Shown piece after piece: positions 11,370 through 37,937 of a stretch of DNA of 54,504 nt (the stretch's first letter is position 1; each line of letters opens with the position of its first letter). This DNA comes from Candidatus Methanomethylophilaceae archaeon. Its GTDB lineage: Archaea > Thermoplasmatota > Thermoplasmata > Methanomassiliicoccales > Methanomethylophilaceae. The stretch lies in assembly GCA_017935945.1 (NCBI GenBank), contig JAGBGN010000134.1, positions 1 through 54,504 of the forward strand, written 5' to 3'. The translations under genes were made by a program, and so were the position numbers. The notes under the pieces are model-generated. The model saw nothing but the letters and a program-made list of their open reading frames with translations. It ran no database searches and was not told the origin of the DNA.

Positions 11370-12854
11370 ATGTCCAGCGGATTCGATAACGACATGTATC
11401 TGAGGACCCAGTCCGAGCATATCAGAGAACGCATAAAGAGCTCCGGTGGTAAGCTCTATCTCGAGTTTGGTGGCAAACTCTTCGATGATTACCATGCATC
11501 CCGTGTTCTTCCCGGTTTCAAGCCGGATTCCAAGATATCCATGCTCTCGGAGTTCGGGAAGCAGGCCGAGGCCATCGTGGTGATCAATGCCGAGGACATA
11601 GTCAGGAACAAGGTCCGTAAGGACATCGGTATCGGATACGACATGGAGGTCCTCCGTCTGGTGGATTCGTTCACGGACAGGGGCATAGATGTCTGCGGTC
11701 TGGTCATAACACATTATTCCGGTCAATCCGCTGTGGACCAGTTCCAGAAGAAGGTTGAGGCACTGGGCCTCCGCATATACAGGCACTACTACATCGAGGG
11801 ATATCCTACGGACATCCCTTACATCACCAGCGATGACGGTTTCGGGAAGAACGACTACGTCGAGACGACAAAGCCCCTTGTCGTGGTCACCGCACCCGGT
11901 CCTGGAAGCGGCAAGATGGCCGTGTGCCTTTCCCAATTGTACCACGAGCATGTCCGCGGGGTGTCCGCCGGATATGCGAAGTTCGAGACGTTCCCGGTTT
12001 GGAACCTTCCTCTGAACCATCCCGTCAACATAGCCTACGAGGCGGCGACCGCTGACCTCAGCGACAGCAACATGATCGATCCGTTCCATCTGGAGGCATA
12101 CGGGACCACAACCGTCAATTACAACAGGGATGTCGAGATCTTCCCCGTCCTCAATGCCATGTTGGAGGGTATCTTCGGCACCTCCCCGTACAAGTCTCCC
12201 ACCGACATGGGAGTCAACATGGCCGGCAACTGCATCGTCGATGACGAGGCCGTGCGCAGAGCCGCAAACAACGAGATCATCCGCCGTCACTTCTCCGTCA
12301 TAAGGGACCGCAGGGAGGGGAAGGCCGACCAAGAGGCCGTCCTGAAGACCGACCTGCTGATGAAACGTGCCGGGATCTCCCCGGACTACAGGAAGGTGGT
12401 CACCGTCGTCAGGGACCAGATGAAGCTCACCGACAGGCCCGTGGTCGCTGCCGAGATGCCGTGCGGCAGGATAGTCACCGGTAGGGCGTCCCCGCTGCTG
12501 ACCGCATCGTCTGCCATGATCCTCAACGCGTTGAAGGTTCTTGCCCAGATCGATGACGATGTCCTGCTCATTTCGCCGGAGGTCATAAAGTCCATGCAGA
12601 GGTTGAAGGTGGACTACCTCGGTAATAGGAACCCCCGTCTTCATATCGATGAGATGTTGGTGGCACTATCCATCGCGGCCAACACGGATTCGCAGGTCGA
12701 GAAGGCACTGTCGAAGCTTCCTCAGCTGAGGGGATGCGATGTACATTCATCCGTCGTCATATCGCAGGTCGACGAGGGTCTGTACAAGAAGCTCGGGATG
12801 TATGCATCCAGTGAGCCGGAGCACCAGACCAAGTGCCTCTTCCACGGTGAGTGA
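11370..12854 (+). CDS. DUF1846 domain-containing protein
   Basis: A 494-aa cytoplasmic protein matching the DUF1846 family (PF08903) along its whole length. The start GFDNDMYLRTQSEHIRER is followed by LYLEFGGKLFDDYHASRVLP. A central P-loop-like VVTAPGPGSGKMAVCLSQLY occurs near residue 170, then KFETFPVWNLPLNHPVNIAYEAATADL and GTTTVNYNRDVEIFPVL. These blocks are characteristic of the family, whose biochemical role is unresolved although the GSGK loop suggests nucleotide or phosphate binding. Length is normal. It is a single gene on the plus strand, converging on the cysteine hydrolase that follows. Confidence 0.88.
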   Translation: MSSGFDNDMYLRTQSEHIRERIKSSGGKLYLEFGGKLFDDYHASRVLPGFKPDSKISMLSEFGKQAEAIVVINAEDIVRNKVRKDIGIGYDMEVLRLVDSFTDRGIDVCGLVITHYSGQSAVDQFQKKVEALGLRIYRHYYIEGYPTDIPYITSDDGFGKNDYVETTKPLVVVTAPGPGSGKMAVCLSQLYHEHVRGVSAGYAKFETFPVWNLPLNHPVNIAYEAATADLSDSNMIDPFHLEAYGTTTVNYNRDVEIFPVLNAMLEGIFGTSPYKSPTDMGVNMAGNCIVDDEAVRRAANNEIIRRHFSVIRDRREGKADQEAVLKTDLLMKRAGISPDYRKVVTVVRDQMKLTDRPVVAAEMPCGRIVTGRASPLLTASSAMILNALKVLAQIDDDVLLISPEVIKSMQRLKVDYLGNRNPRLHIDEMLVALSIAANTDSQVEKALSKLPQLRGCDVHSSVVISQVDEGLYKKLGMYASSEPEHQTKCLFHGE

Positions 12855-12861
12855 TCCCGGC

Positions 12862-13395
12862 TCAGATGAAGTGGACGTTCCCCCTGATATCGTCCAGGGT
12901 CACCTTGTTGCAGATGGAGAGGACATGCTCGACGTTCTCCTCGTCGGTGGCGGCGATCCCCCCGTCCAGCATCGAGGCCATGATGTCCACATCGTGTGCC
13001 CCGTAGTAGCTGGCCGCGACACACATGTGGGCGACGAGTCCTGCCAGCACGATACCGTCGCATCCCATGTCCTTCAATATGGATTCTAGTCCCGTACCGT
13101 TGAAGGCATTCATGGCCGTCTTGTGTAGGACAGGTTCACCATCCCTGGGTTCTCTCAGGCCCGGGACAAGTTCATCGCCATCCTCCACTTCCCTGATGCA
13201 CGATCCGAGTCCGTCGAACATTATGTAGATCACCGGATTCCCTGTGGACCTGAACAGGTCTATCGCCTGATTGACGGTGTCCACCTTCCCCATCATTGAG
13301 ACCTTGAGGCCATCGGTCGTCTCGATGAACTTCTTCTGGATGTCCACAAGCACCAATGCCAGTTTTCTCTTCGGGAACTCGACGTACTCGTTCAT
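12862..13395 (-). CDS. Isochorismatase-family cysteine hydrolase (copy 1)
   Basis: A 177-aa protein of the isochorismatase/nicotinamidase superfamily. The catalytic triad is visible as D18 (VLVDIQKKF), K92 (VLHKTAMNAF) and C125 (GLVAHMCVAAS), with the usual cis-peptide VAHMC context. The reaction is hydrolysis of an amide, imide or vinyl ether; the exact substrate cannot be read. A second copy lies at 38149-38682 with the same triad. A 19-nt palindrome overlaps the expected transcription start, just upstream of the ATG, and resembles palindromes before the second copy and before the FecCD remnant. Co-regulation with that paralogue is likely. Confidence 0.9.
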   Translation of the reverse strand: MNEYVEFPKRKLALVLVDIQKKFIETTDGLKVSMMGKVDTVNQAIDLFRSTGNPVIYIMFDGLGSCIREVEDGDELVPGLREPRDGEPVLHKTAMNAFNGTGLESILKDMGCDGIVLAGLVAHMCVAASYYGAHDVDIMASMLDGGIAATDEENVEHVLSICNKVTLDDIRGNVHFI

Positions 13396-13429: not shown

Positions 13430-15574
13430 TTACTCCAGCCTGAATTTTGTATCTAGCCTTTCGTCTGCGAACATGAGTTCGAGCAAATCCTTGGGCACGT
13501 GCTGGTCGTACTTGCCGATACGTACGATGTCGTCGGGGGATACGAGGGCGGACGGGCCGTGGGACAGGATGGTGTTGACACGTTCCAGGACATCGTCCCA
13601 TGGGAGCCTGGTGAGAACATCGATGTAGTATGGTCTGAACCCGTACACCCTGTCCACGCTGTTGACCATCCTGAGTGCCCTGACCAAGGTGTCGAACTGG
13701 ATTGTACCGACCCAGGGGAACAGTCTGATACCACCTTCTATCTCGGAAAATGTAGACAACATCCCGTTGTTCCTGGCGAACGTCCTGCACAGGGCCAGCC
13801 TGTTGGATGCCGCGGGATCCAGATAGGGGTACTCGGTATCGGATCCCAGCACATCCCTCATCTTGGACATAACACGGGGGTGGACGTCCGGGGTACCGGA
13901 TTTCCACGGTGTCTCCGCCGAACCATCGGTCTCTTCCACGAGTACCGTCGCATCCTCCGATCTGACCTCGATGACCTGCCATATCCTCCCGGCCAGTTGG
14001 ATGAGCTCCCCTTCGTCGGGGACCCCCTGAATGGATCCAACCCTGCCATCGGGGGAGATGACATCTATCTCCTTCTTCACCTTGAAAACGGAGCAGAAAT
14101 CGTGGCCGAATGCGACCTTCTCCCCCTTGGGTCCGATGAGGAGGGTCCCATCCTCCATCCTGACAAGTTGTCCGGATGAGACCATGTGTCTCAGGAGCTT
14201 CTTGTAGGCATCCTTGTCTATCTCCGAGAACGGTTTCATGGACAGGACCTCCGATGACAGGGTCCCGAACCTCGCCCCTGTGCTCTCTTTGAGGAACTCC
14301 ATGGTCTGGTGGTACAGCAAACCGAACGGGTACCTCCTGTCGACGGGTGGTTCGGTCCACCCCTCATTCATTATCAGCTCGGTCATGGCGATTGCCTTCA
14401 CGAGGTCCATGCTGACGCCATCCACGGATGACCATGGTTCGGACGAGTCCTCCCTGCAGAACACGACCATCCTCTGACCTCCGCCCCTGCGACCGGACCT
14501 GCCCATCCTCTGGACCATGCCCGTGCATGTGAACGGTGCGTCGACCTGCACGATGCGATCCAGTTCACCTATGTCTATGCCGAGTTCCAGGGTGACGGTT
14601 GAGACCACGGTCACCTGTTTGGAAGGGTCCTTCAGGTCCTCCTCCGCCCTTCTGCGGAACTCATGGGACACACTGCCGTGGTGGACGTGTATCCAGTCCC
14701 CGTTGCCCATGGTCCTCTCAGCAACCTTCCTCAGGGACCTGCCTATGACCTCTGCGTCGTACCTGCTGTTGACGAAGACGATGCATTTGCCACCACGTAC
14801 CTCCTCGAGGAGGTTTCTGTAGAATCCCGTTATAGCGCGTTTCCTCTCGGTGTCGTCACCGTCCTCATCGGGGACGGGGAACCCGCGGTAGCGCACGCAC
14901 ACGCTCCTGTCCGATGCCGATGGGTCCCTGATGACGGATGTGCGCCTGCCCGTATCGGAGGATAGCCAGTTGGCTGCGAGCGCCGTGTCGGAGAGTGTGG
15001 CGGAGAGGCCGATCCTGCGTGGGTCACATCCGGCCACGACCTCCATCCTGTGCAGGCAGCATTGGAGCTGTGCTCCCCTGTCCGAGTCCACGAACGTATG
15101 GACCTCGTCTATTATCACGAACCGGAGGCCGGAGAACAGGTCGCGGATGATGTCCGGGTCGCCGGACACTATGTTCTGAAGGGATTCCGGTGTGATCTGG
15201 AGTATGCCCGAGGGGGCATCCAGGAACCTCGCCTTCCTGTTGCGGTCCACATCCCCGTGCCATCCGGTGACGGGGATGCCAGATTCCCTCAGTATCCCGT
15301 CCATCCTGTCGAACTGGTCATCGATGAGTGCCTTCAGTGGACCTATGTACAGTGCACCCACGGTATCGGAGGGGTTGTTGTACAGGGATGTTATGACCGG
15401 GAACATGGCAGCCTCGGTCTTACCGCTGGAGGTTCCCGCTGAGATGAGTATGTGGTCATCCCCTCTGCGGAAGTAGTCGAATGTGGCCTCCTGTATCGCC
15501 CTGAAGCTTCCCCAGCGCCTGCTGTGGACGTATTCCCTGAGGAACCATGGCAGGGATGAGAAGTGGTCGGTCAT
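13430..15574 (-). CDS. Lhr/BrxHI-like superfamily 2 DEAD-box helicase
   Basis: A 714-aa SF2 helicase. Motif I is SAGTSSGKTEAAMFP (about residues 44-58), motif II DEVH, motif III SAT, and motif VI QRMGRSGRRGGGQ. The N-terminal Q-like region is FRAIQEATFDYF. The overall pattern, with STVTLELGIDIGELDRIVQV before motif VI, is that of Lhr-type helicases and resembles BrxHI of type 2 BREX. About 300 residues of C-terminal accessory domain follow the helicase core. Its ATG overlaps the stop of the BrxD-like gene by 4 nt (15571-15574), so it is the third gene of a coupled cassette. DNA remodelling or translocation is expected; defence is inference. Confidence 0.85.
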   Translation of the reverse strand: MTDHFSSLPWFLREYVHSRRWGSFRAIQEATFDYFRRGDDHILISAGTSSGKTEAAMFPVITSLYNNPSDTVGALYIGPLKALIDDQFDRMDGILRESGIPVTGWHGDVDRNRKARFLDAPSGILQITPESLQNIVSGDPDIIRDLFSGLRFVIIDEVHTFVDSDRGAQLQCCLHRMEVVAGCDPRRIGLSATLSDTALAANWLSSDTGRRTSVIRDPSASDRSVCVRYRGFPVPDEDGDDTERKRAITGFYRNLLEEVRGGKCIVFVNSRYDAEVIGRSLRKVAERTMGNGDWIHVHHGSVSHEFRRRAEEDLKDPSKQVTVVSTVTLELGIDIGELDRIVQVDAPFTCTGMVQRMGRSGRRGGGQRMVVFCREDSSEPWSSVDGVSMDLVKAIAMTELIMNEGWTEPPVDRRYPFGLLYHQTMEFLKESTGARFGTLSSEVLSMKPFSEIDKDAYKKLLRHMVSSGQLVRMEDGTLLIGPKGEKVAFGHDFCSVFKVKKEIDVISPDGRVGSIQGVPDEGELIQLAGRIWQVIEVRSEDATVLVEETDGSAETPWKSGTPDVHPRVMSKMRDVLGSDTEYPYLDPAASNRLALCRTFARNNGMLSTFSEIEGGIRLFPWVGTIQFDTLVRALRMVNSVDRVYGFRPYYIDVLTRLPWDDVLERVNTILSHGPSALVSPDDIVRIGKYDQHVPKDLLELMFADERLDTKFRLE

Positions 15575-16866
15575 ATCTCCAGGTCCTCGATGATATCGTC
15601 ATCGGGGTTCTCATCCGCATCGAGTCTGCGTCCGCGGACCATGTCGTGGAAAGTGGTGCCGGGGTTCTGGCGGAGGGTGTCGAGTAGGCTGATCAGGTCC
15701 CTGGTGATCTCCCTGGGTGTGATCATGGATGTGGAGATGACGCTGTTCATCACCTCGTTGAGGTAGTCCTCCAGCATGTCGTCGTTGATTCCGGATTCGT
15801 AGGAGTACCTCTGCTCGTGAAGGTCCCTGAGCGTCTTCAGGAGGACGTACACCTCCTCGTTGGTGAGCGGTCTGAGGTTTATGACCGGACCGAGGTAGTT
15901 GTCGTATCCGTTCTCGTAGCGTCCGGAGACCAGCCTGGACCTGAGTGCCTCGTAGCTGTAGAGCCCCCTGTTCGGATCCTCGATGAACTCGGGGGTTCCG
16001 CATACGTACATGGACAGATGGGAGGATTTCCCCTGCATGATGTCGTTAAACATGGTGAGGAGGCGTTCGTAGTTGTTGGACCTGGATGCGCGGTTCTGCA
16101 GTTTGTACAGGATGACACCTTCGTCTATGAACACGACAAGTCCCCTGTATCCCATGCGTACCACGAGTTCCGCCCAGAGTTTGATGAAATCGTACCAGTT
16201 AGAATCGTCGATGACAGTGTTTATGCCGAGTGTCCTGCGTGCATCGGTCTTCAGTTCGACCTCACCCTTCATCCATCTCAGTGCGGGGCTGTCGTCCACC
16301 GATGAGATGTGGTCGGACATGTAGCGTGAGACTACCGACACGAAATCCTGGTAGTGAACCATGCCGGACATGTCCGATGTGATGTCGCGAAGTCTCCTGT
16401 CCAGTTCCCTTGATCCGATGTCCCCAGGCTCCATGCCCGATTCATCGGCCATGGCTATACGCACCTGGGATATCCAGTTCTGGAGGAGCGGTTCGGTTGC
16501 ACCTCCGTCGGGACGGCTCTTCACGGCCATGTTCCTGACCAGTTCCCTGTATGTGTTGAGGCCCTCCTTCTTGGATCCCGTGAGCCTCCTGTTGATAGCC
16601 AGGTCGGCATCCATGACGGCGAACCCGCGGTCCATGGCGTAGTTGCGGACCATCTGGGTCATGAAGCTCTTACCGTTACCGAAGCGTCCCGAGATGAACC
16701 TGAACGCACCACCACCTTCGGCGGTGTCCTCCAGGTCATCTACGAATGTCTGTGTCTCCTTCTTCCTGCCGACAGCGATGTATTCCAATCCCCTACGGGG
16801 TACAACACCTGAGGAAAGTGCGTTCATGAGAGTCGTGAGTGTCCTCTTTGGTATCTGTGGCGTCAT
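15571..16866 (-). CDS. BrxD-like (DUF2791) P-loop ATPase
   Basis: A 431-aa AAA-type ATPase with Walker A GRFGNGKSF (about residues 60-68). A Walker B-like GLVVFIDEGVILYK follows near residue 240. The opening IPKRTLTTLMNALSSGVVPR and the phrase GLEYIAVGRKKE are typical of DUF2791 proteins, the family that includes BrxD of type 2 BREX. The family is thought to act with a partner helicase. Its start overlaps the TerB-N-like gene stop by 4 nt and its end overlaps the helicase start by 4 nt, so the three proteins are made together. No PglX methylase or PglZ is nearby, so this is not a complete BREX locus. Confidence 0.85.
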   Translation of the reverse strand: MTPQIPKRTLTTLMNALSSGVVPRRGLEYIAVGRKKETQTFVDDLEDTAEGGGAFRFISGRFGNGKSFMTQMVRNYAMDRGFAVMDADLAINRRLTGSKKEGLNTYRELVRNMAVKSRPDGGATEPLLQNWISQVRIAMADESGMEPGDIGSRELDRRLRDITSDMSGMVHYQDFVSVVSRYMSDHISSVDDSPALRWMKGEVELKTDARRTLGINTVIDDSNWYDFIKLWAELVVRMGYRGLVVFIDEGVILYKLQNRASRSNNYERLLTMFNDIMQGKSSHLSMYVCGTPEFIEDPNRGLYSYEALRSRLVSGRYENGYDNYLGPVINLRPLTNEEVYVLLKTLRDLHEQRYSYESGINDDMLEDYLNEVMNSVISTSMITPREITRDLISLLDTLRQNPGTTFHDMVRGRRLDADENPDDDIIEDLEI

Positions 16867-19067
16867 TCGAGCATCCTCCTCAGTTCTTCGATGTAGTCCT
16901 CCACAATCTCCCCATCATCTATGACGGTATCGCCGAGCACGTCCATGGCCATGGTGTTGACCGACTCCTCCATGAGTCCCGCAGTGGTCCTGTTGCGTTC
17001 CAGGAACGCACGTGTGTCGGCTCCGTCCATAAGCAGGCGTATGTACTCCTTCTGCAGGACCGTGAACCCAGGTCCAGAGGAGGCGAGGTCGTCCACTTCC
17101 ATGCCGCCGGCTGGCTCAGCATCGTCATCGTCGATGCGCATCATCTCGGTGACCTCATCCAATGCGGATTCCGCATCCTTCACGGCCTCCCTGTCCAGGA
17201 TGACCTTGATCCTCTCCTTGGGGACCGATGCCTTCTGCCCGGAGGAGAACCATCCTTCGACGGCCTGCTCTATGATGCCCTTGATCGGCATGCCGAACAG
17301 GTTCTCGTGCATGATCCTGTTGTTCTTCTTGCCCTTGTGCTTCCTGACTGCACGCACCACGTCCTTCAGCAGATCGGTCAGGTCCGTGCGGAAGTACCTG
17401 TTCCTCTGCAGGTCCGGGAATGAGACCTTCATGCTGGTGCGGCGGTCTCCCCAGTACGAGAGGTCTTTGTATGCCTCGTACTCGTGTTCCATGATGAGTC
17501 CGAATCCTCTCACTATCCCCTCGGAAATGGATTCGTCCACGGCACGGAGGACCAAACTGGTGATGGCGGCGCAGTCCGAATCGAAATCCGCTCTCAGACT
17601 GTCCCTGCTCATGGAGGATGCCTCGAGGAACATGCGCGGGTTCGTGATCGTACCGACATCCCCCCTCAGCATGCTCTGGAACAGCATGCCGTCCAGGATT
17701 CCAGAGTGGACCCTGTCCGAATCATACACGGTCACGTCATTGACGAGTATGTAATCCTGATACGTCACGCACAACGGGCTTATCGGGTACACGCCACGTT
17801 CGTAGTGCGAGACCATGTCACCCAGGAGGAACACGGTCTGGTCGTGGTCCCTGGACATGTTGATGGTCTCGGTGAGGAACAGCCAAAGGTAACCGCGGTC
17901 GGTGTCCAGGTACACGCCGTTGCGGGCCATGTCCCTCCAATGCAGGTAGTACTCTAGCTGCTCCGTGTCCATGAGGGTGTAGCTTGGGCGCATCATGCCG
18001 GACGGTATGTACCTGCGCTCACCTCTGGACCCCACATCCCAGTAGCGTTCCACCTCATCCCTGAGGGAGTTGGGCGGGATGTTGGACATGCTGCGGTAGT
18101 CGGTGACGATGACGCCCTCGGACAGGGGGGTCGTGGAAAGGGACTCCCCCATCTCCTGGAGCATGCGTTCCCTGTCGGAGACCCTTACGATCTTGACGTT
18201 TTCCTGTTCCTTCGGTCCGCGGACATCATCTCCGCGTCCCTTCTGCATGTCCTCGTACGCATCATCCGCTATCTTGCGCATGTTCTTATCGAATTCAGAG
18301 GTGGAGCGTATGGAACCGTCCCCTGATTGGAGTCTCTCGCAGTACCTGACCGCACCTTGGAGGAACTTCCTGAAGCGGGTGTTGTCCAGGCTGATGTATG
18401 TCACATCGCATCTCCTGTCCTTGCTGTAGGGTATCCCCTCGAACAGGTCGACCGGTTCGCACACACGGTCACCGAAGGTCTCCACGATGCCGTTGCCCGT
18501 GGTCATCTTTAGGTTCCTGTCGACTCTGAGCAGTACCAGGTTCAGGAGCCTCTCGAACCTCTCGAGCCTGTCGTCCTTGCGGGTGTAGGAGGGGATGAAG
18601 TGTCCGATGAGACGTCCCGCTTCGAAATCGGTTATCTGATCTGGAGGTGATGAGAAGCGATGGCATGCGGCCATCCAGTGCCTGGATTCCCATGGTAGGA
18701 GGGACAGAGAGGGTATGGGCAGTCCGTTGAGGAGTGCAACATCCACCATGACCTTGTTCAGGACGTGCTTGTTGTTGATGACGCACCCCCTCATGAGGTC
18801 GAGTTCCCTCATGGCCGCAACGGGATCCATGTCGGAGTTCACGATCTCCGTCATCCTGAGCCAGGCGTATCCATCGTCGCCCTTCAGGAGCTCCCCCTCC
18901 GAGAGTCTGGATCTCCAGTGGAAGTAGTATCCGCGTTGGACATGGTCCAGGTACACGTAGTCTGGTGACCTGCTCTCGCTGGGTACGTATGTGCATGGGG
19001 CCCCCATCTCCCCGGAGAATCTTTCAATGTCGGCGAAGAGCTCGCTCCAGTCCCTCTTGTCCTTCAT
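16863..19067 (-). CDS. Large protein with two TerB-N-like modules and a TerB-C-like end
   Basis: A 734-aa soluble protein, first gene of the three-gene cassette. Two related segments are visible, residues about 40-80 (RGYYFHWRSRL ... DGYAWLRMTEIVN) and about 362-405 (EYYLHWRDMARNG ... RGYLWLFLTETIN). Both match the WR...Y(L)...E(I/T)(I)N pattern of the TerB N-terminal domain, so the module is duplicated. The C-terminal 65 residues (VLQKEYIRLLMDGADTRAF ... IEELRRMLE) look like a TerB-C domain. The middle carries a lysine-rich RKHKGKKNNR patch. TerB-N/TerB-C proteins are known to be linked with DUF2791 ATPases and SF2 helicases in predicted stress or DNA-processing complexes. The exact role is unknown. 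Confidence 0.75.
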   Translation of the reverse strand: MKDKRDWSELFADIERFSGEMGAPCTYVPSESRSPDYVYLDHVQRGYYFHWRSRLSEGELLKGDDGYAWLRMTEIVNSDMDPVAAMRELDLMRGCVINNKHVLNKVMVDVALLNGLPIPSLSLLPWESRHWMAACHRFSSPPDQITDFEAGRLIGHFIPSYTRKDDRLERFERLLNLVLLRVDRNLKMTTGNGIVETFGDRVCEPVDLFEGIPYSKDRRCDVTYISLDNTRFRKFLQGAVRYCERLQSGDGSIRSTSEFDKNMRKIADDAYEDMQKGRGDDVRGPKEQENVKIVRVSDRERMLQEMGESLSTTPLSEGVIVTDYRSMSNIPPNSLRDEVERYWDVGSRGERRYIPSGMMRPSYTLMDTEQLEYYLHWRDMARNGVYLDTDRGYLWLFLTETINMSRDHDQTVFLLGDMVSHYERGVYPISPLCVTYQDYILVNDVTVYDSDRVHSGILDGMLFQSMLRGDVGTITNPRMFLEASSMSRDSLRADFDSDCAAITSLVLRAVDESISEGIVRGFGLIMEHEYEAYKDLSYWGDRRTSMKVSFPDLQRNRYFRTDLTDLLKDVVRAVRKHKGKKNNRIMHENLFGMPIKGIIEQAVEGWFSSGQKASVPKERIKVILDREAVKDAESALDEVTEMMRIDDDDAEPAGGMEVDDLASSGPGFTVLQKEYIRLLMDGADTRAFLERNRTTAGLMEESVNTMAMDVLGDTVIDDGEIVEDYIEELRRMLE

Positions 19068-29358: not shown

Positions 29359-32300
29359 ATGGTGTTCGATGAGCCGGTTTTCCAGAACCCCGGGGAGCTC
29401 CGCCTGTGGAAGCGTATCAACAGGAAGGGACTCATGGGTACCCTATTGTCTCTGCGTGGAGGAGACGAGGCCATCCTGGAAGAGATCCTATCTGGAGATG
29501 GCGGGCTGCATCCCGCGATACTCACCGCGCTCATGGACCGTGTACGCTACATGGAGGGCAAGCCCCTCAAGGAGACACTGGCGAAACTCGCGCAGAGGTC
29601 TCGCATACTGGATTGCATGCCTTCCGTACACGCATCCCGCATGATGCTGGATGCAGGAGACACGACGTCCGCCGCCGAACTGCTGTCCCTGTCATCACGT
29701 TCCCAGGAGGTCCGTACCCGCATGCTCATGGCGGCCGAGATATACCTGGCCGAGGGGGACAACGGCAACGCGTTCGTTTCCGCTCAAGATGTTGTGGGGA
29801 CCGATCCATCCTGTGACAGGGCCTACAGGATTCTCATGGAGCTCGATCCGGAGGGCGACTGGGGTCTGAGGCGTGACATATACGCGGTTTTCGAAGGGAG
29901 GGAGCCTACATTCGACCACGATCCCGGTCGTCTGCAGGACCTCTACACCATCTACTATGAATGGTTTAGGGGGAACAAGGATTCAGCCACGGACAGTCTG
30001 GTCCGTTCCCCGTACTACATCGATGGGGACCCCGACTTCATGCTGGCATCCGCCAGGATGTCCATGGACGAGGGCGATTGGCGCTCCGCCCGTATGATGT
30101 ACGACAAGCTCCTCTCCGATGATGCCCCATCACATCTCATCTGCGAAGCGGTCGAGGCATATGCCGCAGGTGGCGACCACAACGGTGCATTGGATCTCCT
30201 GGTCCGTGCGGATCGGAGTTCCCCGAGGGTCATGGACCTGTACATCCGCATACAGGCGGACAAGGGTGATGTCTCGGACATGATGGACTCCATACGCGTC
30301 CGTCTCGGTTCGGAATCATCCGTTCTGGGGAACTACCTGCTGGTGATGGACTTCCTCATCGACCGCGGGATGTACGCCGAGGCCGGTTCGGTCCTGGAGA
30401 TGATGGACCAGGACTCCATCCATCATCCAGAGGTTCTGGTCAGGTCTTCCATACTATCCATGAGGACCGGGAACGACCGTCAGGCGCTGTCATCCGCCAA
30501 GGAGGCGGTCCGTAGGGACCAGAACAATCTGGATGCCCGTACCCAGAGGGCCCGTATGCTCCACAGGACGGGGGAGGTCGACTATGCACGGAAGGAATGC
30601 ATCGCCATACTCTCCAGGGACCCAAACCACATGGGCGCCCTCGTTCTGTCAAGGGACATCTCCCTGTCCTCCGCCAGATGGTCTGATGCAGTTTCCGTCT
30701 GCGAGAGGATCCTCTCTAACGATCCCGGTGACACCGTGACGAGGGTGGCTTTCGCACGTGCCAAGGGGTCCTTGGGTGATGTGGATGATGCCATGGACAC
30801 GTTGGTCGCATTGACGGGAGTCGAACTCGATCCCAGGGAGGCGGAGGAGGTCGTCGGACTGATGGTCGACTACGGAAGATACGGGGATGCCATCGCATCC
30901 TGTATCAAGCTGGAGCAGAAACAACCGAATTCATCCAAGCTCAGACGTCTCAGGGGTAATGCAGAGTACCATCGTGGAGAGTTCCTGAAGGCATCGGTAG
31001 CATATTCCGAATCACTGAGGATCAATCCCGCGGACCCGTGGACCTGGCATTCCAAGGGTATGGCGGATGAGGCCCGTGGGGATATGGATTCCGCCGAAGC
31101 ATCATTCGAACGTTCGGTTTCATTGGATCCCTACAATCCTCGTTTCTGGGATTCCAAGGGAAGTGCACAGGAATCACGCGGGGACCAGGTGGGTGCTCTG
31201 CAATCATTCAGGCGTTCATACGAACTCGATCCCACGTCGATCTACCCGTTGATCCACATGGCCGGCATCTTCCGTGACAGGGGACACGGTCAGGATGCAC
31301 TCCGTTGTGTGGACCAGGCCATATCCCGGTCCCGTTCACGTGATCTGGACATCATGAAGATGAGTATCCTGGCGGACATGGGACGCCATACCGATGCGGT
31401 TTCATATGGACTCTCCGTGTTGGAGAAGGGACCTGATACGGAGGTGTCCATAATGATCGCCACGTTCCAGATGGATGTCCTGAACGATCCGAGGTCAGCC
31501 GTCATAACCCTCGACCGTGCATTGGTGTCCGACCCGGATTCGGATGCCATAAACACCCTCCGTGCGGAGGCCGTTGTCCGTTCCGAGGGTTCGCTGGAGG
31601 ACATCGTCTCATCACCTGGGTTCGATGTATCGGATGCCATGGGTATCGATGAGCAGGTCCCCGATCAAGACACCGCTGCGGAAGCTGTTCCCGAGGAGGA
31701 TCCGGATTCCCTGTTCGAGATGTCCGTGTCACTCCTGTCCGCAGGGGATGTGAGGGGTGCGATGAGGATGGCGGAACGTGCACTGTCATACGATCCAGGT
31801 AATCCCGATTACATGTGCGTCAAGGCACGTGCCGTCCTGGCGACCGGTGACCGCGAGGGTGCCACCATGATAGTCATCGAGGGGCTCACCGATCATCCGG
31901 ACCATGCGGACCTCCATCATCTGCTCGGTTCCCTCAGGGTCTCCGCAGGGGACTACGGTGGGGCATTGTCCGAACTGGATAGTGCCATCAATCACGGTGT
32001 AGACGGTTCCGATGTGTACTCCGAGAGGGGTGACGTCCATGAGAGGTTGGGTAACCTGGACCGTGCCATCGGCGACTATGAGATAGCCGTCGCGAAGGAT
32101 CCCGGCAGGGTGGACCTCATGGAGAAACTCGCCCGCATGTTGCTCTCCAGTGGCAACACGGTCTCTGCTGAGGCCTATATCTCCAGGGTGCTGGCCGAGG
32201 ATCCCTACCGTGTGTCCGCCATCGTACTCAGAGCCGAGTTATTCGAATCCAAGGGGGATCCGGAAGGAGTCCTTGCATCATTGGAACTTTTCAAGGAATG

Positions 32301-32898
32301 CCCCAACCCCGGTGCCGACAACACAGTCCGCATGGTCAAGATGCTGGAATCCATGGGTCACGAGGAGGAGGCCAGGGAGCTGATGGGCAACCGTCACGGT
32401 AGCGGTCCGGATGAGAAGACCATCAGGCGTTATGCTGAGAGGGCCCTGCGCAGGGCGTTCGCCACTAGGACCGATCCTTGCGATCCAGACATGCTGTCTG
32501 CATTGGGTATGGATCATGTCATGGTACGCAAGGTGTCGGATTACATCGGCACGTACCCCGATTACGGTCGCATATCCCCGGGAAGCGACGAGTTCGAGTA
32601 CATGGAGGTCAAATCCCGCGATGTGATCATGAAGTGCAGGTGGACCGACCTGGAGAACGAATCGCGCATCCCCCTGGACAAGGTCTTTGTCACAGGCGGT
32701 TTCAGCGATGTGGAGGATGCCCGCATGCTGGTCGCATACGTATTCAAGGTGATGCACATGGATGTGGGTCGCAGGTCCGATCCGAAACTCACCCAGATGT
32801 CCATGCGCTTGCCGAAGGGCATGACCGTCTACGAGATAATGGAAGAGTGCGGCGTCGGGGTCTACGAGGCCCGCGTGATCGCCGCACAGATAGTTTGA
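29359..32898 (+). CDS. Giant tetratricopeptide-repeat protein
   Basis: A 1179-aa soluble protein built almost entirely of TPR-like helix pairs. Typical units are AYSESLRINPADPWTWHSKG, SFERSVSLDPYNPRFWDSKG and SFRRSYELDPTSIYPLIH (about residues 550-640), with further repeats near 820-1000. The N-terminal 30 residues (VFDEPVFQNPGELRLWKRIN) precede more degenerate repeats. The last 160 residues form a distinct domain with VFVTGGFSDVEDARMLVAYV and MTVYEIMEECGVGVYEAR, whose C-terminus looks like a helix-turn-helix. No signal peptide is seen, so it is a cytoplasmic scaffold. Partners are unknown. It is monocistronic and converges on truD. Confidence 0.85.
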   Translation: MVFDEPVFQNPGELRLWKRINRKGLMGTLLSLRGGDEAILEEILSGDGGLHPAILTALMDRVRYMEGKPLKETLAKLAQRSRILDCMPSVHASRMMLDAGDTTSAAELLSLSSRSQEVRTRMLMAAEIYLAEGDNGNAFVSAQDVVGTDPSCDRAYRILMELDPEGDWGLRRDIYAVFEGREPTFDHDPGRLQDLYTIYYEWFRGNKDSATDSLVRSPYYIDGDPDFMLASARMSMDEGDWRSARMMYDKLLSDDAPSHLICEAVEAYAAGGDHNGALDLLVRADRSSPRVMDLYIRIQADKGDVSDMMDSIRVRLGSESSVLGNYLLVMDFLIDRGMYAEAGSVLEMMDQDSIHHPEVLVRSSILSMRTGNDRQALSSAKEAVRRDQNNLDARTQRARMLHRTGEVDYARKECIAILSRDPNHMGALVLSRDISLSSARWSDAVSVCERILSNDPGDTVTRVAFARAKGSLGDVDDAMDTLVALTGVELDPREAEEVVGLMVDYGRYGDAIASCIKLEQKQPNSSKLRRLRGNAEYHRGEFLKASVAYSESLRINPADPWTWHSKGMADEARGDMDSAEASFERSVSLDPYNPRFWDSKGSAQESRGDQVGALQSFRRSYELDPTSIYPLIHMAGIFRDRGHGQDALRCVDQAISRSRSRDLDIMKMSILADMGRHTDAVSYGLSVLEKGPDTEVSIMIATFQMDVLNDPRSAVITLDRALVSDPDSDAINTLRAEAVVRSEGSLEDIVSSPGFDVSDAMGIDEQVPDQDTAAEAVPEEDPDSLFEMSVSLLSAGDVRGAMRMAERALSYDPGNPDYMCVKARAVLATGDREGATMIVIEGLTDHPDHADLHHLLGSLRVSAGDYGGALSELDSAINHGVDGSDVYSERGDVHERLGNLDRAIGDYEIAVAKDPGRVDLMEKLARMLLSSGNTVSAEAYISRVLAEDPYRVSAIVLRAELFESKGDPEGVLASLELFKECPNPGADNTVRMVKMLESMGHEEEARELMGNRHGSGPDEKTIRRYAERALRRAFATRTDPCDPDMLSALGMDHVMVRKVSDYIGTYPDYGRISPGSDEFEYMEVKSRDVIMKCRWTDLENESRIPLDKVFVTGGFSDVEDARMLVAYVFKVMHMDVGRRSDPKLTQMSMRLPKGMTVYEIMEECGVGVYEARVIAAQIV

Positions 32899-36386: not shown

Positions 36387-37937
36387 TTAGAAGGCGTCGA
36401 GATTCGTCTGGTCGCGCCTGTTCAAGGTGGACGATCCGCGGCTGAGGTCGTCGTTGAGTTTCTCGAGACGGGCCCTCATGGCCTCCTCCTTCTGCTTGCT
36501 GGTCCTCTCGAAGATCTCGTCCACGGTCCCCTTGGCGATCAGGACGTACACCTCTCCATCGTTCTTCCTGCCGGTACGGCCGCGTCTCTGGATGGTGCGT
36601 ATCTCGGACGGGACCGGTTCGTAGAAGATCACGGCATCGGTGCTGGAGACATCCAGTCCCTCCTCCCCGACGGATGTGGAGACGACCACGTTGACATCCC
36701 CGTTGCGGAACCGTTCGAGAAGTCCGATCTGCTCCTTCTGCTTCAGTCCACCGTTGGACTGACCTATGAGCTTCCCCACCACTGCACCGGGGATGGTGGA
36801 CAGCTTCTCCGTCAGGAGCTCGCAGGTGTCCCTGTACTGCGTGAACACGATGACCTTCGATCCCGGGCGGTTGTTCACCGTCCTGCTCACCAGGGACATC
36901 ACACGGGAGATCTTCGGATGCTCGACGTTGGTCCTGTCGACGATTCCCCTGATCCCGGAGTACTCGTCACGGTTGGTCAGCTCCTTGGCACCCTTTCCAC
37001 CCTTCTCCGCCGATGCCTCTGTCTCCAGTTTGGAGAGGTAGTTCCTCAGGGCGCTCATCCCCTGTGTTTCTGCCAGGTTGATCGCATGGAGCAGCTTGAT
37101 GCACATGGATTGGAGTGTGAGTCCCCTGAACACGATGGCGGTCTTCTCCCCGCGGGCCAGTCTCCTCTGGAGGTTCTCACCGACCACCAGCAGGTGCTTG
37201 GTGGATGCCGGCCAGTTGCCGTTCATCAGGTGCAGGCTCACCATCTCCGAGATGTAATGGTCCAGCATGGATCTCAGCAACGCTATCGTGTCCGAGAGGT
37301 CCTGTGGCATGTTGACCTCGACCCTGTTCACGAAGGTGTCATGGACATAGGGTGACACATCCGGGTCGTAATCCGAACGGATGTCTATGCGCCTGAAACC
37401 GAGGTTCATGCACACCTCCTCTATCTTCCCCGCATCGCTTCCGGGGGATGCGGTCATACCGACGGAGCGGGTGTTCTTCTCCTTGAAGCGTGCGACACGG
37501 ACGTAAGCGTAGTTCCCCGTTCCCCTATGGGCCTCATCGTAGATGATCAGCGAGAATCCGCTCAGGTCGTACCTGCCGGCTTCCAGGTCGTTGGCCACGG
37601 ACTGGGGTGTGGATATGACCACATCGCAGGTGGACATCAGTTCCGCCCTGCGTTCCGGCTTCATGTTACCGGTCATCACGCCGATGTCGGCATCCACCAG
37701 GAGGTTGGAGAACTCCTCGAAGTGCTGTTCCACCAGGGGTTTGGTCGGAGCCATGAGGAGTATCCTGCCCTTGGATAGGAAATCGGCTGTAACGTTGACA
37801 GCAACGATCGTCTTCCCCAGTCCGGTCGGTAGGATGAGAAGGGTGTTGGAGGTGACGCAACCGCGGGCCATGGAGACCTGGTACATGCGTTCCTCCACCT
37901 TTCCGGGGACGATGCGGGGATGGACGATGTAGTTCAT
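36387..37937 (-). CDS. Hef/FANCM-like DEAH helicase without nuclease domain
   Basis: A 516-aa SF2 helicase of the Hef/FANCM/MPH1 family, which remodels stalled forks and branched DNA. Motif I is LPTGLGKTIVAVNV, motif II YDEAHRG, motif III TASPGS, and motif VI QRRGRTGRKNDGEV. The insert between the RecA lobes (about residues 215-345) is the family helical domain. Many euryarchaeal Hef proteins continue into an XPF-type nuclease; this one stops after the helicase with a short coiled tail, as in the Thermoplasma relatives. The TTATCTAAAA element about 25 nt upstream suggests a leaderless start. Its partner gene is ligase on the same strand. Confidence 0.9.
   Translation of the reverse strand: MNYIVHPRIVPGKVEERMYQVSMARGCVTSNTLLILPTGLGKTIVAVNVTADFLSKGRILLMAPTKPLVEQHFEEFSNLLVDADIGVMTGNMKPERRAELMSTCDVVISTPQSVANDLEAGRYDLSGFSLIIYDEAHRGTGNYAYVRVARFKEKNTRSVGMTASPGSDAGKIEEVCMNLGFRRIDIRSDYDPDVSPYVHDTFVNRVEVNMPQDLSDTIALLRSMLDHYISEMVSLHLMNGNWPASTKHLLVVGENLQRRLARGEKTAIVFRGLTLQSMCIKLLHAINLAETQGMSALRNYLSKLETEASAEKGGKGAKELTNRDEYSGIRGIVDRTNVEHPKISRVMSLVSRTVNNRPGSKVIVFTQYRDTCELLTEKLSTIPGAVVGKLIGQSNGGLKQKEQIGLLERFRNGDVNVVVSTSVGEEGLDVSSTDAVIFYEPVPSEIRTIQRRGRTGRKNDGEVYVLIAKGTVDEIFERTSKQKEEAMRARLEKLNDDLSRGSSTLNRRDQTNLDAF

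Follow-up and report, generated by a model that had tools for sequence, protein, structure and literature searches.

The window analysed here is a 54,504-nucleotide (nt) stretch of DNA from a Candidatus Methanomethylophilaceae archaeon (assembly GCA_017935945.1, contig JAGBGN010000134.1), and its subject is a minus-strand cassette of three genes that is, with near certainty, the anti-phage system Shango (sngABC). All three genes start with ATG and are joined by 4-nt overlaps (16863-16866 for sngA/sngB and 15571-15574 for sngB/sngC), confirming the coordinates, strand, order and coupling given in an initial annotation made from the sequence alone. The sngA-sngB-sngC order was found again in members of the genus with contigs spanning the locus, which excludes a chance arrangement. 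Pfam assigns TerB_N (1.8e-9, in two stretches) and TerB_C (6.3e-6) to the first protein, BrxC_BrxD (6e-136) to the second, and DEAD and Helicase_C to the third. The positions of these genes and of associated features are collected in Table 1.

Identity of the cassette

The second protein scores 503 bits against the PADLOC SngB profile compared to 171 bits for BrxD, with the SngB match covering residues 3-428 of 431, and its 171.5 bits lie well under the NCBIfam BrxD cut-off of 350 bits. The third scores 656 bits against SngC (residues 3-709) compared to 401 bits for BrxHI, and matches the profiles of Druantia DruE weakly at 63 bits. The initial annotation had seen an orphan combination, in which a TerB-N protein took the place of missing BREX components. 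Neither part of this view survives: all three proteins match the known SngA, SngB and SngC profiles of PADLOC, SngB and SngC over nearly their full length, the Sng scores exceed the Brx scores, and PglZ was found in 0/31 genomes of the window's genus. The impression of BREX arose because the helicases of Shango (SngC), BREX (BrxHI), Druantia (DruE) and Dpd (DpdJ) share one immunity-associated superfamily 2 (SF2) clade (PMC12278908). A reduced BREX, with a TerB protein replacing PglX, PglZ and PglW, would account for an ATPase and a helicase homologous to the BrxD and BrxHI of type 2 BREX, a kinship that the initial annotation had rightly noted. As a class assignment it is nevertheless refuted by the profile scores and the absence of PglZ, and we regard it as almost certainly wrong; a distant common ancestry with BREX remains. 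No BREX genes were recognised among the window neighbours scanned.

Shango acts against phages in Pseudomonas aeruginosa PA14 and E. coli (PMC10250203 and its ref. 22); the P. aeruginosa system consists of TerB-like, ATPase and helicase genes and blocks phages of several families (PMC10250203). The idea of a stand-alone defence machine put forward in the initial annotation thus agrees with a described anti-phage system, and the antiviral role of the present cassette is proposed by analogy with these bacterial relatives. It shares with them the gene order, the set of TerB-family protein, BrxC/D-type ATPase and SF2 helicase, and matches to all three Sng profiles. In contrast to the E. coli and PA14 systems, it resides in an archaeal host, contains the TerB_N-type module twice in SngA with no match to the TerB core, is fixed throughout a genus instead of occurring on plasmids or in hotspots, and in some relatives is accompanied by two SngA genes per SngBC.

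The active-site motifs of the ATPase and helicase are kept among relatives, and motif III of SngC (SAT) is present in addition to those listed in Table 1. A PDB sequence search linked SngC to Lhr-type and YprA helicases, while SngB gave no match and SngA chance matches only.

Table 1. Positions of the sngABC genes, their sub-features and associated genes (window positions unless a locus is named; aa, amino acids).
Feature	Position	Strand	Description
sngA	16863..19067	-	734 aa, TerB_N-TerB_N-TerB_C, first gene of the operon; PADLOC SngA 2.2e-35; Pfam TerB_N and TerB_C above cut-offs
SngA module 1	18234..19052	-	aa 6-278, conserved motif aa 27-81; hhalign of repeat against repeat; predicted helix/strand order matches
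SngA module 2	17238..18077	-	aa 331-610, conserved motif aa 353-407; repeat alignment and single-module model
SngA TerB_C tail	16878..17165	-	aa 635-730; Pfam TerB_C; one of the best conserved regions of the protein
sngB	15571..16866	-	431 aa, BrxC/D-type P-loop ATPase; PADLOC SngB 2.4e-151, BrxD 1.6e-50
SngB Walker A	16666..16689	-	GRFGNGKS, aa 60-67; intact, conserved in genus
SngB Walker B	16120..16140	-	LVVFIDE, aa 243-249; intact, conserved in genus
sngC	13430..15574	-	714 aa, SF2 helicase of BrxHI/Lhr-like clade; PADLOC SngC 2.6e-197, BrxHI 2.1e-120; DEAD and Helicase_C
SngC motif I	15416..15439	-	AGTSSGKT, aa 46-53; intact
SngC motif II	15098..15109	-	DEVH, aa 156-159; intact
SngC motif VI	14489..14512	-	QRMGRSGR, aa 355-362; intact
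Isochorismatase-family hydrolase	12862..13395	-	Pfam 1.1e-21, no PADLOC match; 34 nt downstream of sngC, outside Shango
DUF1846 protein	11370..12854	+	Pfam 7.8e-171; chromosomal neighbour of Shango, on either side, in 11 examined loci; outside the system
SngC-less pair	L131:8537-11831
SngC-less pair	L132:12535-15142
SngC-less pair	L133:377-2777
SngC-less pair	L134:8371-10720
SngC-less pair	L135:5801-8156

Architecture and divergence of SngA

The two TerB_N stretches and the TerB_C end noted in the initial annotation are matched above Pfam cut-offs, and the duplication proves larger than was first seen. Residues 27-81 and 353-407 of SngA share 42% identity (E 2e-11), and profile-profile alignment with hhalign reveals a duplication of the entire module, some 275 aa long (E 1e-44 over 267 columns); the module tails align even when the conserved motif is left out (E 1e-19). 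The same helix/strand order occurs twice in the AlphaFold model of full-length SngA, which has a predicted local distance difference test (pLDDT) score of 83 and a predicted template modelling (pTM) score of 0.46, the latter making the placement of the domains unsure. Module 2 modelled alone is confident (pLDDT 89.5, pTM 0.84), and no fold match to this single module was found in the PDB (best E 1.9).

SngA is the fast-diverging part of the system. Mean identity within the genus is 30% for SngA, 55% for SngC, 71% for SngB and 79% for DNA ligase, and among eleven genes compared in eight syntenic species SngA has the lowest conservation (68%). The ratio of nonsynonymous to synonymous substitution rates (dN/dS), estimated pairwise by NG86 with some dS values close to saturation, is higher for SngA than for SngB in 10/10 close pairs and than for SngC in 8/10. 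The divergence is unevenly spread along the protein, column identity being 0.38-0.46 for the two motifs and TerB_C compared to 0.19-0.21 for the module tails. SngA is likewise the most divergent component in three Paenibacillus Shangos (L027, L028 and L097; 35-43% identity versus 65-76% for its partners), hence rapid divergence of SngA is probably a general Shango trait.

Copy number also varies. In five genomes a single SngBC is preceded by a tandem pair of SngA genes that share 17-36% identity, and in G057 and G070 both tandem copies have been kept as orthologues (52 and 60% identity, compared to 20-21% for the cross-pairs). An apparent SngA allele replacement between the sisters G072 and G073 (38% identity by best score) was rejected, as G073 carries a pair of SngA genes whose upstream member is the orthologue (66% identity). 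SngA paralogues also occur apart from recognised SngBC (L136:8770-10986 in G059, G058:C47, G067:C14 and G062:C126), near pylS in G059 and G058 and adjoining htpG at a contig end in G062. Five relatives contain a second, SngC-less pair, made up of a short SngA-like protein and a diverged SngB beside a corrinoid-protein/pylS gene cluster; the short protein corresponds to the C-terminal part of SngA only, with no TerB_N match in the two that were scanned.

An in-frame TAG is found at the same homologous codon, within the first TerB_N motif of sngA, in L065 (G053), L085:8029 (G074) and L087 (G076). Two of these three species encode EHGEAAPH[TAG]PFVWLRICELI, and the sister G077 has TAC. Purifying selection between G053 and G076 is evident both before the TAG (dN 0.095, dS 0.78) and from the TAG to the next Met (dN 0.05, dS 0.96), and PylS is present in the genus; pyrrolysine is therefore probably inserted at this position of SngA. 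Pyrrolysine has previously been predicted in Cas1 of M. alvus (PMC4153887). The stop codons of 16 window genes checked (2442 to 37937) are 14 TGA, 2 TAA and 0 TAG, which fits the use of TAG as a pyrrolysine codon in these archaea.

Distribution and inheritance of Shango in the genus

The closest relatives of SngB in a species-level genome collection come from Methanomethylophilaceae/Methanomassiliicoccales (66-75% identity), many of them from guts or rumens, and the next-closest from Paenibacillus (47-49%), the nearest SngB outside the archaeal family. Judged by these relatives, the host is very probably a gut methanogen of the Methanomethylophilaceae. SngB and SngA are each present in 31/31 genomes of the window's genus and SngC in 30/31. 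This count includes G062, where SngB and SngC belong to another, bacterial-like type and the native SngA sits at the edge of a contig, two loci cut by contig ends (G066 and G071) and one SngC split into two overlapping frames (G056). Across the order, SngB occurs in 42 of 147 genomes and 3 of 30 genera, and 14 control genomes gave no SngB or SngC match. Cas1 was found in 11/31 genomes of the genus, making Shango the steadier of the two. Elsewhere Shango is commonly mobile, as SngB relatives are frequent in plasmid records (684, of which 541 are on plasmids predicted to be conjugative).

The SngB and SngC trees of 25 genomes have 19/22 splits in common, and share 13/22 (SngB) and 14/22 (SngC) splits with the tree of DNA ligase, compared to a mean of 0.26 and a maximum of 3 shared splits in 1000 label shuffles of SngB versus ligase. 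Since both trees largely follow that of the ligase, inheritance of Shango within the genus is mostly vertical. In a quick SngB tree with several open forks, the native archaeal SngB sequences group in a single supported clade, in which five g7 sequences are nested in g1 and g12 near the base. Outside this clade, a bacterial-like Shango lineage occurs in the same archaeal family (L092 in G011, L034 in G017 and L033 in G062). Downstream of a Phaeobacter plasmid Shango, a gene annotated as a DUF4297 family anti-phage-associated protein (L101:8470-9693) overlaps sngC and is possibly an extra effector.

In 17 loci from distant parts of the genus (L064, L066-L076, L078-L082), the bacterial-type Hsp90 gene htpG is no more than about 10 kb away from Shango, which suggests that Shango ancestrally stood next to htpG. 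In L078 htpG precedes sngA by about 17 nt; the htpG of the window genome is on a different contig. HtpG was rejected as the product of a fourth Shango gene, as some genera have htpG but no Shango and the gene is distant in other loci, and it is therefore treated as an ancestral chromosomal neighbour.

These patterns raise the question of whether Shango has been domesticated in this genus, the immune operon having become a housekeeping machine for DNA maintenance, such as a replication-fork or repair helicase. Presence in all 31 genomes, mostly vertical descent, the proximity of htpG in 17 loci and the lack of recognised defence genes nearby would all fit. The initial annotation had taken conservation in all relatives outside defence islands as the mark of a housekeeping locus, and to this extent the description applies. 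It fails in that Shango is absent from 27/30 genera of the order, is plasmid-borne elsewhere and has a fast-evolving, sensor-like subunit, none of which is usual for a housekeeping locus. SngA is moreover far more divergent than the ligase or other neighbours and occurs as divergent tandem copies, and some relatives hold the separate bacterial-type Shango. Domestication is thus quite unlikely in our view.

Among the window neighbours scanned with Pfam and PADLOC, only the gene at 36387-37937 gave many PADLOC matches. It encodes an SF2 helicase with an RNA_helicase_helical insert, which we read as Hef-like, and its PADLOC matches are weak and confined to the shared helicase core. A 1179-aa protein consisting mostly of TPR repeats is encoded at 29359-32898.

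Proposed function and its implications

We consider it likely that the cassette is a chromosomally fixed, vertically inherited Shango antiviral operon, with SngA as recognition subunit and SngB-SngC as ATP-driven DNA engine. SngA would act as both sensor and adaptor: the two TerB_N-type modules would make contact with a feature derived from the invader, be it DNA, a replication intermediate or a viral protein, and the TerB_C tail, which is conserved, would dock on the motor. SngB would spend ATP to load or activate SngC, which would translocate on or unwind invader DNA and so stall its replication. A conserved ATPase-helicase pair with a variable partner that carries a conserved tail is the arrangement from which we infer that recognition of the invader falls to SngA, which then passes it on to the motor by way of TerB_C; the target, the formation of a complex and the sequence of events in this division of labour are inferred likewise. 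Remodelling or replication arrest is favoured over cutting, since no nuclease domain was recognised in SngA, SngB or SngC.

An abortive response can also be envisaged, in which the ATPase-helicase, once an invader is detected, is directed at host DNA and the cell dies or stops growing. Type III Druantia shows abortive features (PMC13316683), and its DruE-type helicase belongs to the clade of SngC (PMC12278908). The three proteins, however, are without a recognised toxic domain, and we judge this course unlikely, favouring direct interference with the invader. More tentatively, and at odds somewhat below even, recognition subunits may be exchangeable: a conserved SngB-SngC motor would work with one fast-diverging SngA protein or with several, the genus keeping the motor while diversifying, duplicating and scattering SngA to follow its viruses.

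Several observations weigh against an antiviral Shango with SngA as its sensor. No defence island was recognised around the cassette among the neighbours scanned, and fixation across a whole genus is unusual for an immune system and could hint at a different role in the cell. Fast divergence of SngA can also arise from weak constraint. The host is known from its genome alone, and no antiviral test of Shango in any archaeon was found in the literature. Fold searches with full-length SngA gave no match, either in the PDB (best E 0.62) or among viral structures (best E 0.11). Finally, the TerB core (PF05099) has no Pfam match in the window SngA or in the methanogen SngA proteins scanned, where divergence may have put it beyond detection. 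The SngA proteins of Mesorhizobium, Phaeobacter, the haloarchaeon DL31 and two Paenibacillus each contain one TerB_N match; of these, Mesorhizobium and Phaeobacter match the TerB core, DL31 does so below threshold and Paenibacillus L027 and L097 do not. Hence not every Shango SngA shows a TerB core, and the latter two resemble the window protein in this respect but differ in their single TerB_N match.

Shango has been counted in archaea in an Asgard survey (PMC11291487) and in rumen genomes (PMC13356809), and is absent from the main text of a 2026 survey of archaeal immunity (PMC12988326). Within the incomplete coverage of the open library, no report was found of genus-wide Shango fixation, a doubled SngA module or tandem SngA genes, and nothing on TerB-N/TerB-C or DUF2791. 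The system itself is known; new here are its genus-wide presence, the doubled and fast-evolving SngA and the tandem SngA genes.

Defence systems are usually patchy in distribution, whereas Shango is present in all sampled species of this genus compared to a third for Cas1. The hosts are rumen and gut methanogens, whose viruses and immunity are little studied. The SngA module offers a confident predicted fold with no PDB counterpart, and the 31 related loci provide a natural series for locating the parts of SngA that are under pressure. Together, the fast divergence, tandem copies and module duplication of SngA make its role as a recognition subunit a testable claim.
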